Assembly (NCBI RefSeq): GCF_014191875.1
Contig: NZ_JACHXD010000025.1
Span: 1 to 64,000, forward strand
Reading direction: 5' to 3'
Length of the DNA stretch: 64,000 nucleotides
Origin: Pseudoduganella violacea
GTDB lineage: Bacteria > Pseudomonadota > Gammaproteobacteria > Burkholderiales > Burkholderiaceae_D
Under the pieces are notes generated by a model that was not told the origin of the DNA, did no database searches, and saw only the letters and a program-made list of their open reading frames with translations. Positions 58,231 to 64,000 of the stretch are shown here, piece by piece (position 1 is the first letter of the stretch; each line of letters starts with the position of its first letter). Position numbers and translations under genes: made by a program.

Positions 58231-59016
58231 CTAACCGGCGCAGGGCTTGAAGTTGACGCCTTTGATATCGGCTGCGGCCAGCTTGGTGTACAGCTCCCGC
58301 GTCACCAGGAAGGCTTGGCTGGCGCTGGCGCCGCTGCCGAAATACTGCGCTGACTTGAAGGCGGCGGCAGGCGCCGTCTCCGGCCGAGGATGGAAGCCCT
58401 TGACCGGCGGCAGATACTTGGGCCGACCGCAGCAGTTGCAGGTCGTCGCGGCGAGATGCGACAGATCCAGTTCGGCTTGCGCCTGCACGTCCAGTTGCAC
58501 TACCGAATCGAGCGCGGCGCCGCTCTTTTGCAGCAGCACCGGCCGGCAGGCGATGCCGAAAGGCTCGAACAGCGCCGACCACACTTCGGGCTTGACGAAG
58601 TATTCATCGAAGACCCAGTTCAACTGCAGCACATCGTTCTTGCCCCACACCGGCGCCTTGGCAAAGCGGAAGGGCTGGATCTGGCGCTTGCCCGCGCCGC
58701 AGGCCTCGCAGTAGCCGCTCAAGTCGTAAGTCGCGGCCAGATAGCCGCGATCCTCGGACGGTTCCGGATAGCCATGATGCCAGGCCGGGGCCAGCGCCAG
58801 GTACTGCGCGCCTTTCAGCTCGGCGGCGCTGAACTTGGTGCTGACGGTATCGACGGCGCCGAAGCGGCGCGCCAGCGCCTCGACCGCAGGCCAGCGCGCA
58901 TCGCTTTCTTCAATCTGGAAAGCGGCAAAACCGGTTTCCAGCTCCACGCCGGCGGCCAGGAAGGCTTGTCTTTCCGCTTCCTCAACCGCCAGCCCAATGC
59001 GGTGCATGATCTTCAT
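58231..59016 (-). CDS. double-CXXCG (SitI-like) putative immunity protein
   Basis: 261 aa protein with two CXXCG motifs, CEACG near residue 104 and CNCCG near residue 194, the hallmark of the gmx_para_CXXCG/SitI family. In Myxococcus xanthus such proteins are immunity partners of SitA toxins. Here the gene starts 10 bases after the end of the Rhs-type toxin gene and runs the same way, matching immunity position. The C-terminal QAFLVTRELYTKLAAADIKGVNFKPC pattern is also shared with the family. Cytoplasmic, no signal peptide. Confidence 0.85.
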   Translation of the reverse strand: MKIMHRIGLAVEEAERQAFLAAGVELETGFAAFQIEESDARWPAVEALARRFGAVDTVSTKFSAAELKGAQYLALAPAWHHGYPEPSEDRGYLAATYDLSGYCEACGAGKRQIQPFRFAKAPVWGKNDVLQLNWVFDEYFVKPEVWSALFEPFGIACRPVLLQKSGAALDSVVQLDVQAQAELDLSHLAATTCNCCGRPKYLPPVKGFHPRPETAPAAAFKSAQYFGSGASASQAFLVTRELYTKLAAADIKGVNFKPCAG

Positions 59017-59026
59017 AAACTCGCTA

Positions 59027-60985
59027 TTACAAGCCCAAGGCTTTCAAGATTTCCGGATAATTTTTGTAAATTTGCTTGGCTGCCGATTCCACCTGGTCCT
59101 TGGTCGCGGTCGCCGTGCCCTCGCCGTAAGGAATCAGCTTGCGCCACGCATTGGTGAACGCCTGGTGCTCGGCCTCGGTCAGCGCAATCGACTTCATCTC
59201 CTTTTCGGCCACGCCCAGCACGCTGGCGAAGCGTTTCTCGATCAGGTGGTGGGCTTCCAGGCCGGTGCCGGCGGTCAGCTTTTTCAGATCCTTGTACGAC
59301 TGGATGCCGTAGTTGGCTGCCTTCTGGAAGCCTGACAGGCCGTGCGACACCGCGCGCGCCGCGCCTACCGCATGTTCAGTCGCACGCAGCGCCTTGAAGG
59401 CCTGGCCCACGCCGGGAACCGGGCTGGCGACGCCGACCACGCTCAGGCCGACATCGACCATGGCCGCGCCCACACCCACGCCAGTATAAACGGCCAGCCC
59501 CAGCTTGCCCAGGTCGTAGACGAGGAAGGCAACGTCGAGCGGGCTATGGCCGTCGGGATCGACGAAGCGGTAGGGATTGTTGTTGGCATAGGCATAGCGG
59601 TTGAAGCTGTGCACATCGGCCGGATCGACCGTGGCCGGATCGATGCCGTAGAAGCGGCCCAGTTCCGGATTGTAGTAGCGCGCGCCCATATAGCTTAAGC
59701 CGGTATTGCCGTCATACGGCTTGCCGGCGAACCAGAGCTTGTTGCCGCTGGCGGCGGCTGGCTTGTTCAACTGCTCGCCATAGGGACGGTAGTTCTCCTT
59801 CCACACTACATTGCCGTTGCTGTCGGTGGCCAGCATGGGGGTACCCGCCACGTCGTTGTGGAAGAAGGTGGTGCCATTGACCGAAGGCGCAGCCACGCTT
59901 GCGGTTTCGTTATAAGTCTTGCTGCCGCCCGCGCCGGTAGCCGTCCAGACGCAGCTTAGCGTCTTGCCCGCCCATTCGGCGGCGGCCACGCCCTGCATGC
60001 TGCCGCTTGGGCTGACGTTGGCGCTACCCACCGCGCCGATGCCGTTCACGCTGCAGCTATACGATACGGTGGTGGCGTTGGACGAATTCCAGTTGACGGT
60101 AAACGCCGCGCCCGGCGCCAGCGGCGATGGCGTGCGGCCGACCGAGATGGTCGGGGCGGCCGGCGGCGTGCCGCCGCTGACGCTGACATTCACATTCGGC
60201 GAGGTGTCGCCAAACCATTCGACATACTCGCGCAGCATGCGCCACTGGAAGCCGTAGGCGCCGGAACTCGGCGGCGCCTTGACGGCAAAGCTGAAGGTCG
60301 CGTTCTGGCCCGGCGCCACCACGGTCGGCACATCGACCCGGCTCATGCCCCAGGTGGCGCTATCCTGCGGATTTTGCGAACCGAGTTTGTACGCGGTGGC
60401 CGCGGTCCAGGTGGCCGTGCCAATATTTTTGAACGTGACGGAGACATTGTAGGTGCTCCCCGCCGTCATCGACGCCGGCACGCTGTGCGAAACAAACTGC
60501 GCCTGGTTCGGCGGCGGCGGATTGACCTGCACCGCCACATTCGGCGTCATTTCACCGAACCACTCCACCGCCTCTTGCACCATGCGGCGCTGGAAGTTGT
60601 AGGTACCGGCCGTGGCAGGCGCTTTGACGTTGAAGGTAAAGGTGTATTGCTGGCCTGGCGCCACCGTGGCGCCATTATCCATGAAGGCGCGGCCGCCGTC
60701 CCAGCCCTGGTTGTCCTGTGGATTTTGCGAGCCCAGGCGGTGCATGCTGGCGGCGGTCCAATTCTTGCCGCCGCTATTTTTCAGCGTCACCGAAACGCTA
60801 TAGGTCTGCCCCGCCGTCATCACGGCCGGCACATTTTGCGCGACGAATTGCGCATCGTTGACCTGGGCTTGGACCGGTGACAGCAGGCCGCCCAGAATCA
60901 GCAACAACAGCAGGCTCAGAGCCTGGACTCCCAGTTTTCTCCAGCAATGAACAAACCAGGCAAACGGATTGAGTGGATATGTCAT
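59027..60985 (-). CDS. exported NBR1-Ig / Rhs-core polymorphic toxin
   Basis: 652 aa. Signal peptide (KLGVQALSLLLLLILGGLLSPVQA), two tandem NBR1-like Ig domains (residues 45-160 and 165-275; each with PAVMTAGQTYSVSVTLKN / PASMTAGSTYNVSVTFKN and VEWFGE/DTSPNV), a third Ig-like domain, then the Rhs core (FFHNDVAGTPMLATD, YMGARYYNPELGRFYGIDP, NRYAYANNNPYRFVDPDGH) ending in the DPDG junction. The tail has hydrophobic segments and a nuclease-like end with EAHHLIEKRF near residue 579. The Rhs YD shell is not in this protein but in the gene upstream. Toxin activity is inferred. Confidence 0.85.
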   Translation of the reverse strand: MTYPLNPFAWFVHCWRKLGVQALSLLLLLILGGLLSPVQAQVNDAQFVAQNVPAVMTAGQTYSVSVTLKNSGGKNWTAASMHRLGSQNPQDNQGWDGGRAFMDNGATVAPGQQYTFTFNVKAPATAGTYNFQRRMVQEAVEWFGEMTPNVAVQVNPPPPNQAQFVSHSVPASMTAGSTYNVSVTFKNIGTATWTAATAYKLGSQNPQDSATWGMSRVDVPTVVAPGQNATFSFAVKAPPSSGAYGFQWRMLREYVEWFGDTSPNVNVSVSGGTPPAAPTISVGRTPSPLAPGAAFTVNWNSSNATTVSYSCSVNGIGAVGSANVSPSGSMQGVAAAEWAGKTLSCVWTATGAGGSKTYNETASVAAPSVNGTTFFHNDVAGTPMLATDSNGNVVWKENYRPYGEQLNKPAAASGNKLWFAGKPYDGNTGLSYMGARYYNPELGRFYGIDPATVDPADVHSFNRYAYANNNPYRFVDPDGHSPLDVAFLVYDLGKLGLAVYTGVGVGAAMVDVGLSVVGVASPVPGVGQAFKALRATEHAVGAARAVSHGLSGFQKAANYGIQSYKDLKKLTAGTGLEAHHLIEKRFASVLGVAEKEMKSIALTEAEHQAFTNAWRKLIPYGEGTATATKDQVESAAKQIYKNYPEILKALGL

Positions 60986-61012
60986 GAACGTTTTCTCTTA
61001 TGCGTTGGCCGA

Positions 61013-64000
61013 TCAGGGAGTAACGGTTTGGGCGATGCGTTTGCCGCCCAAATAGAAGTACTCGATCAATTTATTGGATTGACTCGGCGTGAATTCGATC
61101 AACTGGTTGCCGTGCGAGCCGTAGATCTCATAGGACTTGACGCCAGCCTTGTTGACCACCAGCCGGCGGTTCGCGCCGTCGTAGCTGTATTCGGTCTTCA
61201 GGGCCGCATTGGCGCAGTTCACGCAGCGCAGATTGGGCATATCGTCATAGGTGTACGCATTGCCCGAGGCCGTGCTCACATTGCCATAGGCGTCGTAAGT
61301 GAAGCGCGTCGAGCGTTCGCCGGAGATGCTGTCGAGACGATTGGCGCCGTCGTAGCTGTAGTTCAGCGCACTGGAACCGAAGGTCTGGCTCTTGATATTG
61401 CCGGCGCCATCGTACTGGATGCTGCCGGCGCCCCAAGGGCCGGCAATGCCGGTCAGGCGGTTGGCGCCATCGTAGCCCAGGGTGCGGTTATAGCCGCCGT
61501 CCACGCTGTTGCGGATCGCGGTCAGGTTGCCGACGCCATCATAGTCGTAGCTGTTGTCGAAATACGTGGCGCTCCCCTTGACCGTGCTGAAAGAGCTGGG
61601 CCACAGGCGGGCATGCTGGCGATAGGTGCTGCTGGTGCCGTTGGCATAATTGATCTGGCTGATCTGGCCGGAAGGCCAGTAGCCGATACCCGTCACATAA
61701 CCGGAAACCTGGGTCGGCCGGCCTAGCACATCGGGCGCGAAGGCAACCACCCGGCCCGAGCGCGGATAGGTCATCGAGTCCAGTTGGTCGTTGGCATTGT
61801 AAGCATAGCCGGTGGTGAAGGTCAGGCCGTCGACGCTCACGCTTTCGCTGCCCAGATTGTCGTTCGCGTCATAGTCGTTGACGCGATTGCCGGCGCTGGA
61901 GGAGATGGTCTTGATCTTGTCGGTCTTGGTGTAGGTATAGCTGACCGCCGGCGTGCCGCTTGGATAGGTGGCCGTCTTGACGCGGTTGCGGCCATCGTAG
62001 GCGAACGTGACCTGGCCGGAGGAACCCACCTGGCGGCTGGTCATATTGCCCGCCTCGTCGCGGCCATACGTGGTGGTGCCCGTTTCCGGATTGGTGACCG
62101 AAGTCAGATAGTAATTGCCGTTATAGCCGTAGCTGCGCGTCAGGCCACCCTGGCTCACGCTGGTGCTCAGGTCGCGCGCATTGCGCGCCACGCTGAGGTT
62201 CATCGCCGGTTCGGCCGCCACCACGCCCATCAGGAACAACTGCTGCAGATTGCCGTAAGCGCGGTACTGCAGGGTGGTCGAATTATTGCGTTCGTCCACC
62301 ACGGTCTTGTCGACGCCGACGTAGCTGATGGTCTGCGAACTGCCGTCCGCGTTCGAGACGCGGATCGGGCGGTTCAGGATATCGTACTGGTAACCGGTTC
62401 CCGCCGAGCTGCCCGGATGCGATTCGAAGGTCTTGCGGCCCAGCGCATCGTAGCTGTAACTGCGCGTGACGCCGCCCAGGGTCACGCTCTGCGGGCGGCC
62501 AAAGCCGTCATACACGGTGCTTTCCACCAGGCCGCCGCGCGTCATGGTCTTGCCGTTGGCGCTGTAGGAAATGCTGGTGGCGTTCCCGCGCGGATAAGTG
62601 ATCGACGTCATCCGGTTCATGGTGTCGAAGCCATAGCTGCGGGTCTTGCCCTCGCCATTGGTTTCCGACAGCAGCGCGCCGGCGGCGCTCACCGTGCGCG
62701 TGATCTGCACGCCTTCGGGCTGGGTCTCGCTTTGCGGGATGCCGCGCTTGTAACTCGCATAGCTGTGCACCAGATTGCGCGGGAAGGTGGCGCTGGCCAC
62801 ATTGCCCTGGCTATCGTAGGTATATGAAGTCTTCACGCCGTCCGTGGTCACGGACAGCAGATTGCCGTTGCCGTCGAAGCTGCGCGTGGTGGCGCTGCCG
62901 GCGAAGCTTTCATCCTTGACCAGCTTCAGGATCCATTTGCCCAGGTCCTTGTAGTAAGCCACGCTGGTGCTGCGGTTGCCGCCGCGCGGCCCGGCCTCGG
63001 TGATCGTGCCGGGATTGCCGTGGGCGTCATAGTTCGCATAGCTGGTGCTGAAGCTGACGCCATTGAGCACGATGGTCTTGCTTTGCAGGTCGGGAACCAG
63101 GACCTGGTCGTCGCTGATGCGCAGCCGGCCGGCGACTTCCTGCGTGTCGGCCGTGGTCAGCACGCGCGGCTGGTACACATAGCTTTCGCGGTAGCTGTCG
63201 CCTAGGGCGAGATCGACCGGCAGGCCTATCTTCCATGCACCCGGCTTGGCGGCGATGCCGCAGTAGGTGTTGTACTCGGGGCGCTTGGTGTTGCAGACGT
63301 TATGCCAGGCCGGAACGGCGGCCAGCGCGGTCGGCGTGAAGTAGCCCAGACCGTAGAAACGGCGCACCTCGCGTCCCGCCGGGCCATCGATGGTGACGGT
63401 GTCGAAACTGCCCTCGGGCACATTCTTCGAGATCGGCCGGTCATAGCTGTATGTCCAGACACCGCCATCGCTGGTGCGGCGCTCCAGCACGTCGGGCTGG
63501 CCCCAGGCCATATGCGCATTTTCGAGGATGTAGTCCCAGGTATCGAGGTACTCCTCGCTTGGTGGGCTCGACCAGCCTTCCAGCGCGTACGTGGAATATC
63601 CCTCGGCCGGGAAGTCGAAGAAGGTGCGGTAGGTGTAGCTGCTGGTGCCGCCGGTGGGCAGGGTGATCGTCTTCAGCGGCTCGAAATCGCACAGCATCAG
63701 GATGCCGGCGGCATTCGTCGTCGGGCAGCTGTCGGGATAGCTGAAAGCGTAGGAGGTGCCATCCGGCTGGATCACCTTGGCCAGTTGCCCGCCCACGTAG
63801 TAATAGCTGCCGATGCCATTCGGATAGCGGTGGTATTTGTAAGCCCGGGGATGATATTCGAAGCGCCAGACCGCGCCATCGGGTCCCTCCACGCTTTGCA
63901 GCCGTGGACTACGCCAGGTATCGCGGTTGCCGCAATTCGGTTCGCCAAGGTCATAGTTGAACTTGATGACGCGGCCATCGCTCGCGCTGATTTGCGACGG
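61013..64000 (-). CDS. Rhs/YD-repeat protein, 5' end beyond window
   Basis: The frame is open through the right edge, so at least 995 codons belong to this gene and its true start is outside. It consists of many YD repeats (for example GRPQSVTLGGVTRSYSYDALGRKTFE, GNLTAIRNSVDGGYNRTLGYDGANRLTGI), which form the hollow Rhs shell. It ends at FYLGGKRIAQTVTP, just where a normal Rhs protein continues into its HxDxxGSP core; that core is encoded by the next gene. Probably exported. Confidence 0.93.
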   Translation of the reverse strand, partial: PSQISASDGRVIKFNYDLGEPNCGNRDTWRSPRLQSVEGPDGAVWRFEYHPRAYKYHRYPNGIGSYYYVGGQLAKVIQPDGTSYAFSYPDSCPTTNAAGILMLCDFEPLKTITLPTGGTSSYTYRTFFDFPAEGYSTYALEGWSSPPSEEYLDTWDYILENAHMAWGQPDVLERRTSDGGVWTYSYDRPISKNVPEGSFDTVTIDGPAGREVRRFYGLGYFTPTALAAVPAWHNVCNTKRPEYNTYCGIAAKPGAWKIGLPVDLALGDSYRESYVYQPRVLTTADTQEVAGRLRISDDQVLVPDLQSKTIVLNGVSFSTSYANYDAHGNPGTITEAGPRGGNRSTSVAYYKDLGKWILKLVKDESFAGSATTRSFDGNGNLLSVTTDGVKTSYTYDSQGNVASATFPRNLVHSYASYKRGIPQSETQPEGVQITRTVSAAGALLSETNGEGKTRSYGFDTMNRMTSITYPRGNATSISYSANGKTMTRGGLVESTVYDGFGRPQSVTLGGVTRSYSYDALGRKTFESHPGSSAGTGYQYDILNRPIRVSNADGSSQTISYVGVDKTVVDERNNSTTLQYRAYGNLQQLFLMGVVAAEPAMNLSVARNARDLSTSVSQGGLTRSYGYNGNYYLTSVTNPETGTTTYGRDEAGNMTSRQVGSSGQVTFAYDGRNRVKTATYPSGTPAVSYTYTKTDKIKTISSSAGNRVNDYDANDNLGSESVSVDGLTFTTGYAYNANDQLDSMTYPRSGRVVAFAPDVLGRPTQVSGYVTGIGYWPSGQISQINYANGTSSTYRQHARLWPSSFSTVKGSATYFDNSYDYDGVGNLTAIRNSVDGGYNRTLGYDGANRLTGIAGPWGAGSIQYDGAGNIKSQTFGSSALNYSYDGANRLDSISGERSTRFTYDAYGNVSTASGNAYTYDDMPNLRCVNCANAALKTEYSYDGANRRLVVNKAGVKSYEIYGSHGNQLIEFTPSQSNKLIEYFYLGGKRIAQTVTP

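Follow-up and report, generated by a model that had tools for sequence, protein, structure and literature searches.

A Rhs locus of Pseudoduganella violacea with the YD-repeat shell and the core with its variable tail in two separate genes

A YD-repeat shell gene is followed by a separate core gene

Rhs toxins fold the toxin within a closed cocoon, and how the toxin enters and exits is a standing question. Here, we analysed a stretch of 64,000 nucleotides from contig NZ_JACHXD010000025.1 of Pseudoduganella violacea (the window), which ends in a YD-repeat gene without an Rhs core and an adjoining gene that carries one. On the minus strand, the order is a YD-repeat shell gene (open reading frame 1, ORF1), a gene for a 652-residue protein that we call the cartridge (ORF2), and a candidate immunity gene of 261 codons. 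The features are listed below; Ig denotes immunoglobulin and FN3 fibronectin type III.

61013..64000, minus strand: YD-repeat shell gene (ORF1), C-terminal 995 codons and stop; Rhs core absent, end ..EYFYLGGKRIAQTVTP
60986..61015, minus strand: junction; shell stop TGA at 61013-61015, followed by 27 bp within which TAA at 60998-61000 is a further in-frame stop
59027..60985, minus strand: cartridge gene (ORF2), 652 residues; signal peptide, Ig, Ig, Ig-like, Rhs core, toxin-like tail
60866..60985, minus strand: signal-peptide-like N-terminus, residues 1-40, ..LLSPVQA before Q (sequence and a home-made heuristic)
60521..60856, minus strand, limits approximate: first NBR1/FW-type Ig domain (Pfam match and model)
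60176..60514, minus strand, limits approximate: second NBR1/FW-type Ig domain (Pfam and fold matches to ILRUN and NBR1)
59885..60157, minus strand, limits approximate: third beta-rich (Ig/FN3-like) domain (predicted model)
59546..59872, minus strand: Rhs core or plug, TTFFHNDVAGTP .. DPDGH, with two autoprotease-type aspartates (TIGR03696 and alignment)
59030..59545, minus strand: variable tail, toxin-like C-terminus; HH motif ..EAHHLIEKRF.. at 59246-59251
58231..59016, minus strand: candidate immunity gene, 261 residues, 10 bp 3' of the cartridge gene; two CxxCG motifs by eye

The contig contains the whole shell gene. It encodes 1276 residues, runs beyond the window end to about G000:C25:64843, and its N-terminus, outside the window, is signal-peptide-like. 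The gap between ORF1 and ORF2 is 27 bp (61012-60986), and both frames are in the same phase. In the Pfam and NCBIfam scans, ORF1 matched RHS_repeat (E 3.5e-54) and no core model, and the full shell matched RHS_repeat alone, with no SpvB, propeller, teneurin or NHL family match. ORF2 matched RHS (E 6e-09), the TIGR03696 core (E 1.8e-21, residues 399-480) and, in 2 stretches, N_BRCA1_IG (PF16158, E 8.8e-14); TEN_YD-shell matched weakly, on ORF2 only. A preliminary description of this DNA had read the YD protein as stopping before the core, and the gene 27 bases on as carrying a signal peptide, two NBR1-like Ig domains, a third Ig-like domain, the core and a tail. Both statements are borne out.

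Compared with solved FW domains, the second Ig domain matched ILRUN (6vhi, Z 13.0) and NBR1 (7vqo, Z 11.4; 4ole, Z 10.9), so that PF16158 and the fold matches together give the FW-type Ig fold of the NBR1 FW domain. In the fold searches, the 50 highest-ranking matches to the cartridge model were all Ig-type domains, and the folds of the core and tail thus lie outside this comparison. Aspartates 449 and 476 of ORF2 correspond to the Rhs autoprotease pair and are invariant in 66 aligned relatives. From its HH motif, the tail is possibly an HNH-type nuclease. The same genome also encodes a 3031-residue single-chain Rhs protein (G000:C17:50914-60006, L102) with NBR1-like Ig stretches near its N-terminus that are 51-54% identical to the cartridge Ig domains; giant frames with Ig matches resembling it occur in same-genus genomes as well.

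The split is conserved among the nearest relatives

A homology search with ORF2, taking one genome per species, found 441 relatives, the best 80 of which were kept, corresponding to 78 loci. The search went by similarity rather than architecture and covers the nearest relatives only. For each locus, a core profile and a profile of the final 50-odd shell residues were used to decide whether the two lie in one frame or two. The core is a gene of its own without shell sequence in 70 of the 78 loci (80 such genes), usually made up of a signal peptide, the core, a variable tail and little else. These 70 loci belong to several orders, with 48 in Gammaproteobacteria, 19 in Betaproteobacteria and 3 unranked. 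Among the remaining 8 loci, a single frame covers both shell tail and core in six (L033, L077, L078, L091, L093 and L097, the last a fused frame of only 340 residues), L073 is orphan-like and L094 is cut by a contig end.

A shell frame adjoins 56 of the 80 cartridges; 22 of these frames end at the pre-core point and 34 are extended by further residues. In L023, L035, L056, L058, L059, L069, L072, L074, L079, L081 and L082, mostly Gammaproteobacteria, the extended shells end in a short hydrophobic C-terminus with no basic cluster behind it (for example ..LIPILHLLLH, ..IVIVTGLLLN or ..MIPIRSLLLN). Could this C-terminus be a sorting tag or a docking peptide?

In a wider survey with a general core model, a core was found in at least 59 of 140 genomes of the class. 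We hand-picked 40 stretches from it for short core frames. The 77 core frames there comprise 8 of the signal-peptide-plus-core kind (some of them already in the first set, L186, L188 and L195 being the same as L056, L054 and L046), 34 with shell sequence before the core, 24 with neither and 11 that are cut. One of the cut frames, L192, resembles the signal-peptide-plus-core kind, and a contig end interrupts it. Taken with the 70 of 78 loci, these counts indicate that the two-gene arrangement is a minority among Rhs genes but the rule in its own lineage.

We then placed 153 core domains in a tree built on 109 columns, in which the root is unplaced and the inner forks are weak; core matches of <95 residues, identical cores and L025_9816 had been left out beforehand. 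Split labels were assigned automatically, except that nine tree rows were relabelled as split by eye, including L029 (signal peptide not seen), L175 and the contig-cut L192. One branch (Shimodaira-Hasegawa-like approximate likelihood ratio test 95) holds 84 of the 86 split cores, together with 5 fused cores and 1 orphan; the other 2 split cores lie outside it, along with 39 that are fused and 22 that are orphans. The label requires 7 changes on the tree, versus 50 for shuffled labels. The fused frames within the split branch could be re-fusions. A signal-peptide-plus-core gene at 7743-8501 of L175 sits on a different branch, and no YD-rich frame was found upstream within the fetched stretch; it is perhaps an independent split and is not counted as support. 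Both aspartate sites were present in 78 of the 86 split cores by a motif test.

The cut lies at the start of the core, and both halves mostly have signal-peptide-like N-termini

The 22 shell frames ending at the pre-core point, defined as frames ending at most 20 residues from the tail motif (including the 705-residue frame of L041 and two fragments of L044), stop soon past that motif, 21 of them after 5-8 residues and L092 after 13. Where one frame contains both shell tail and core, the spacing between the two is 7-15 residues in the six nearest cases. Across all 45 frames with both motifs, the spacing ranges from 7 to 387, and it is 7-34 in the 25 frames under a 40-residue cut-off; the long spacings perhaps arise where the tail profile matches an earlier repeat.

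On the cartridge side, cleavage sites were counted in 75 insert-free cartridges; eleven loci had inserts or unusual N-termini and were set aside. In 53 of the 75, a strict [AVS]xA site is found 1-3 residues ahead of the core, versus a mean of 8.5 (maximum 18) in 200 shuffles, so that the start of a mature cartridge would coincide with that of the core. With a looser motif, the last site before the core lies at a median of 3 residues and within 7 in 73 of 75, a way of counting that favours near sites.

Using a home-made heuristic, not SignalP, we detected signal-peptide-like N-termini in 76 of 80 cartridges versus 130 of 794 control frames searched over equal lengths; a shorter control, with frames searched over 60 codons only, gave 60 of 400. 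The shells scored positive within their first 60 codons in 37 of 47 cases, against 34 of 179 controls, and over 250 codons in 41 of 47, where the control climbs to 71 of 179. The preliminary description had proposed a search for the same split in other genomes, and the outcome agrees with its expectation, in that a single branch takes in nearly all split cores and that signal-peptide-like starts are far more frequent in both halves than in controls. A secretin of the type II secretion system is encoded in the genome, which fits Sec export; for the type VI secretion system, the best ClpV-model score in the genome was 831 bits, below the 885 cut-off.

Ig domains occur on either side of the cut. 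In L023 and L035, Big_3_5 domains belong to the shell and lie behind the cut; in L027 and L038, they belong to the cartridge and lie ahead of the core. One Ig family on both sides is expected if the two ends meet in an assembled particle. N_BRCA1_IG was found in only 6 of the 66 aligned core proteins, and for this reason we rejected the Ig domains as the essence of the system. They are a minority insert at the junction. The NBR1-like Ig repeats named in the preliminary description are thus real in the window, where PF16158 and FW folds were matched, and do not extend to the family as a general feature.

The shell and the cartridge core complement each other in solved cocoons

We modelled the window's 995 shell residues with AlphaFold2 from 51 alignment rows. 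The model has a mean pLDDT (predicted local distance difference test) of 88 and a pTM (predicted template modelling score) of 0.82, with strand up to residue 994 of 995. It aligns to the solved cocoons of Tse15, RhsA (Rhs), TcC and teneurin with Z scores of 13-24, including 21.5 for the teneurin-like 9ifo. The end of the model aligns to residue 2071 of 4o9x, 2037 of 6h6g, 2037 of 6h6e, 569 of 5kis_B, 544 of 6l7i_G and 570 of 4igl_B. Sequence alignment places the start of the ORF2 core at 2084, 2050 and 2045 of the first three chains and at 584 (query 374), 556 (query 371) and 590 (query 379) of the last three, respectively. The distance from shell end to core start is roughly 8-20 residues in solved chains, a figure valid only where the numberings agree, because the structure alignment uses the entries' own numbers and the core alignment uses sequence positions, with a visible mismatch for 6sup, 7q97 and 8cp6. 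The shell and the cartridge core align to complementary parts of the solved cocoons. According to PMC8765631, the C-terminal region of RhsA closes one cocoon end, and D1324 and D1346 are required for cleavage.

Tails vary and cartridges occur in tandem

Family matches for the tails of 66 proteins are diverse, with Ntox10 (5), Tox-URI2 (2), HNH (2) and one tail each for Ntox47, TseH, AHH, EndoU, Colicin_D, ribonuclease, M91, REase-7, Ntox8 and others. Most toxin families occur in one or two members, and the majority of the 66 tails have no family match. A same-strand ORF lies close downstream in 73 of 80 split cores (ORFs called mechanically, with no control set). Among 66 downstream frames scanned (65 of relatives and that of the window), nine matched immunity families: Imm40 (2), Imm26 (2), Imm8, Imm11, Barstar, Colicin_immun and Tdi1_C. 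The frame downstream of L088 was left out of one comparison, being the next cartridge.

Two or three core frames are present in nine loci (L025, L034, L044, L053, L056, L060, L062, L080 and L088). Within these loci, identity over the N-terminus and core is 81-98%, and no real similarity is left between the tails when these are compared from 60 residues past the core. The idea of an interchangeable cartridge, put forward in the preliminary description, gains from these tandem copies and from the many toxin families among the tails. Later cartridges are complete, with their own signal-peptide-like start and no shell fragment detected, in L034, L053, L060, L062, L080 and L088. The later cartridges of L044 and L056 carry shell-tail fragments, resembling orphan modules, and the second frame of L025 lacks a start. 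In Acidovorax radicis (L044, 2080-10368), a full shell and cartridge are followed by shell-tail fragments of 201 and 65 residues, each with a cartridge, a graded series from orphan modules to clean cartridges.

A two-polypeptide Rhs toxin is the favoured explanation

We consider it quite likely that the two genes encode a single Rhs toxin made as two polypeptides, a shell and a cartridge that are exported separately and assemble into one cocoon. The steps that we infer, namely export, assembly, cleavage, action on a target and immunity, would run as follows. The shell would be a Sec-exported YD-repeat beta-cocoon missing its final part, the Rhs core or plug. The cartridge, with its signal peptide, optional Ig domains, core with autoprotease aspartates and variable toxin, would be exported separately by Sec. 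Outside the cytoplasm, the core would dock in trans on the open end of the shell, complete the spiral and seal one end with the toxin inside. The conserved aspartate pair would then cut the toxin free, as in single-chain Rhs and TcC. Ig-type domains at the junction may act as spacers or adhesins, and the gene that follows would encode the cognate immunity protein.

Several observations weigh against this reading. No shell was detected beside 24 of the 80 cartridges. Some of these come second or third in a tandem, some are at contig ends and some follow an upstream frame without a detected tail; L029, L040, L057, L070 and L095 are apparently alone within 2.5 kb, and L083 and L085 are preceded only by other core fragments. 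Several of the 56 adjacent shells are short or fragmentary (L041 with 705 residues, L044, L053, L056 and L075). Many gammaproteobacterial shells run from 67 to more than 2000 residues beyond the cut, and assembly in trans must accommodate these. Tse15 has about 40 residues between shell part and core when both parts are aligned by sequence. The lone core was modelled only in part, with a pLDDT of 43-75 in its second half. Furthermore, the tail and the candidate immunity protein of the window match no Pfam or NCBIfam family.

The cartridges without a nearby shell would also suit two proteins that act separately, the YD protein as a surface adhesin and the other as a self-contained secreted toxin whose core is merely an autoprotease or pretoxin module. 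That each half has its own signal-peptide-like N-terminus, and that some shells carry adhesin-like domains (Big_3_5, TSP3), fits such a division. We nevertheless regard it as unlikely, given that 56 of 80 cartridges adjoin a shell frame ending at, or extended from, the pre-core point, that the core is the cocoon plug in solved structures and aligns after the end of the shell, and that the same Ig family occurs both before and behind the cut. Two frames in the same phase 27 bp apart could suggest decay of a single-chain gene or a sequencing error. An error or frameshift was also what the preliminary description had named as fatal to its claim, together with a lack of any conserved split in homologues. 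Error and decay are already contradicted by the second in-frame stop, by the fresh signal peptide and Ig domains between the halves, and by a cut that recurs in 70 of 78 loci from several orders, and we give them hardly any credence.

For loci with several cartridges, the two-polypeptide toxin could be taken a step further. One shell would be loaded in parallel with several ready cartridges, every one of them an entire, exported cap that brings its own toxin and immunity gene, giving a mixed toxin population per cell without recombination, and the cut at the plug would be the conserved enabling device of one old lineage of Beta- and Gammaproteobacteria. We put this forward tentatively, as something that may or may not hold. 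Instead, most of the extra cartridges could be a silent store, in the manner of orphan rhs-CT modules, that comes into use only once recombination has brought a cartridge into the first position; two-piece assembly would then hold for the first cartridge alone. This is compatible with a two-polypeptide toxin, and it agrees with the shell-tail fragments in L044 and L056 and with an identity that is high through the core and lost in the tail. We lean somewhat against it, in view of the six loci whose later cartridges are complete and free of detected shell fragments and of the survey, where a signal peptide is missing from 24 of the 32 uncut short core frames that have no shell sequence.

Comparison with known YD and Rhs systems

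The closest parallel is the toxin complex (Tc) pairs TcdB2/TccC3 and YenB/YenC, in which two polypeptides likewise form a YD/Rhs cocoon and the second chain carries core, autoprotease and variable toxin. YenB packages YenC1, YenC2 and YenC3, the last from another locus, according to PMC11067744. This precedent shows that assembly in trans and swapping of cargo are workable. The cut differs in position. In the structure alignment, residue 4 of the TcC chain (4igl_B) falls on residue 569 of the 995 in the model, which places the Tc cut about 430 residues earlier than the one here. In addition, the SpvB and propeller families of TcB were not found in the full shell, and both parts here are Sec-export-like. 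The preliminary description had called the arrangement unlike single-chain Rhs and TccC toxins alike; the distinction stands for single-chain Rhs and falls for TccC, since TcB/TcC is itself a two-chain cocoon, cut elsewhere.

With single-chain Rhs and WapA proteins, the locus shares YD repeats, a core with the aspartate pair, a polymorphic tail and possibly a downstream immunity gene; it differs in that core and toxin form a separate signal-peptide gene belonging to one branch of the core tree. Measured against the Rhs/YD family as a whole, we found the YD-repeat cocoon, the core with its putative catalytic aspartates and a tail polymorphic at family level, and not shell, core and toxin on one polypeptide. 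Orphan rhs-CT modules are similar as extra core-toxin cassettes 3' of a main gene, whereas the cassette here is complete, has its own signal-peptide-like N-terminus and starts at the core. Bacterial teneurin-like proteins have a YD shell around a toxic C-terminal domain, with immunity genes and, in some, signal peptides and an Ig-like domain, according to PMC13018210. Its abstract and the passages considered describe no two-gene form, and the shell here has no teneurin shell Pfam match. Among the titles and abstract openings of journal articles listed in literature searches on Rhs and on FW domains, we found no split at the core. The component parts are known.

A natural two-piece Rhs protein, cut at the plug and with its halves separately exported, would permit loading to be tested in trans with purified parts. 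Loci in which one shell is followed by several toxin cassettes would also be simple to explain by a split at the plug, which further suggests that small proteins annotated just as 'Rhs core domain' may often be shell caps rather than fragments.

Relatives of the window's tail and candidate immunity protein

Across 369 genomes of the class, the tail was found in its own genome and in one weak match only, and a search of plasmids gave none. The weak match (L135) is 33% identical and belongs to an Rhs core with a VHHIIEKRF tail, in a frame cut by the stretch end, with an unrelated gene downstream; the HH motif is common to this distant Rhs tail and that of the window. The candidate immunity protein, which may be of a 'double-CxxCG, SitI6-like' kind, was found only in its own genome among 31 genomes of relatives. 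In the 369 genomes, it gave one weak match, with three stops inside and neighbouring frames that look peptidase-like by eye. A full-length homologue with 25.6% identity is encoded on the Arthrobacter citreus plasmid CP053689 (L137), where no Rhs gene is annotated within the 6.8 kb shown; it is perhaps a lone immunity gene in another phylum.
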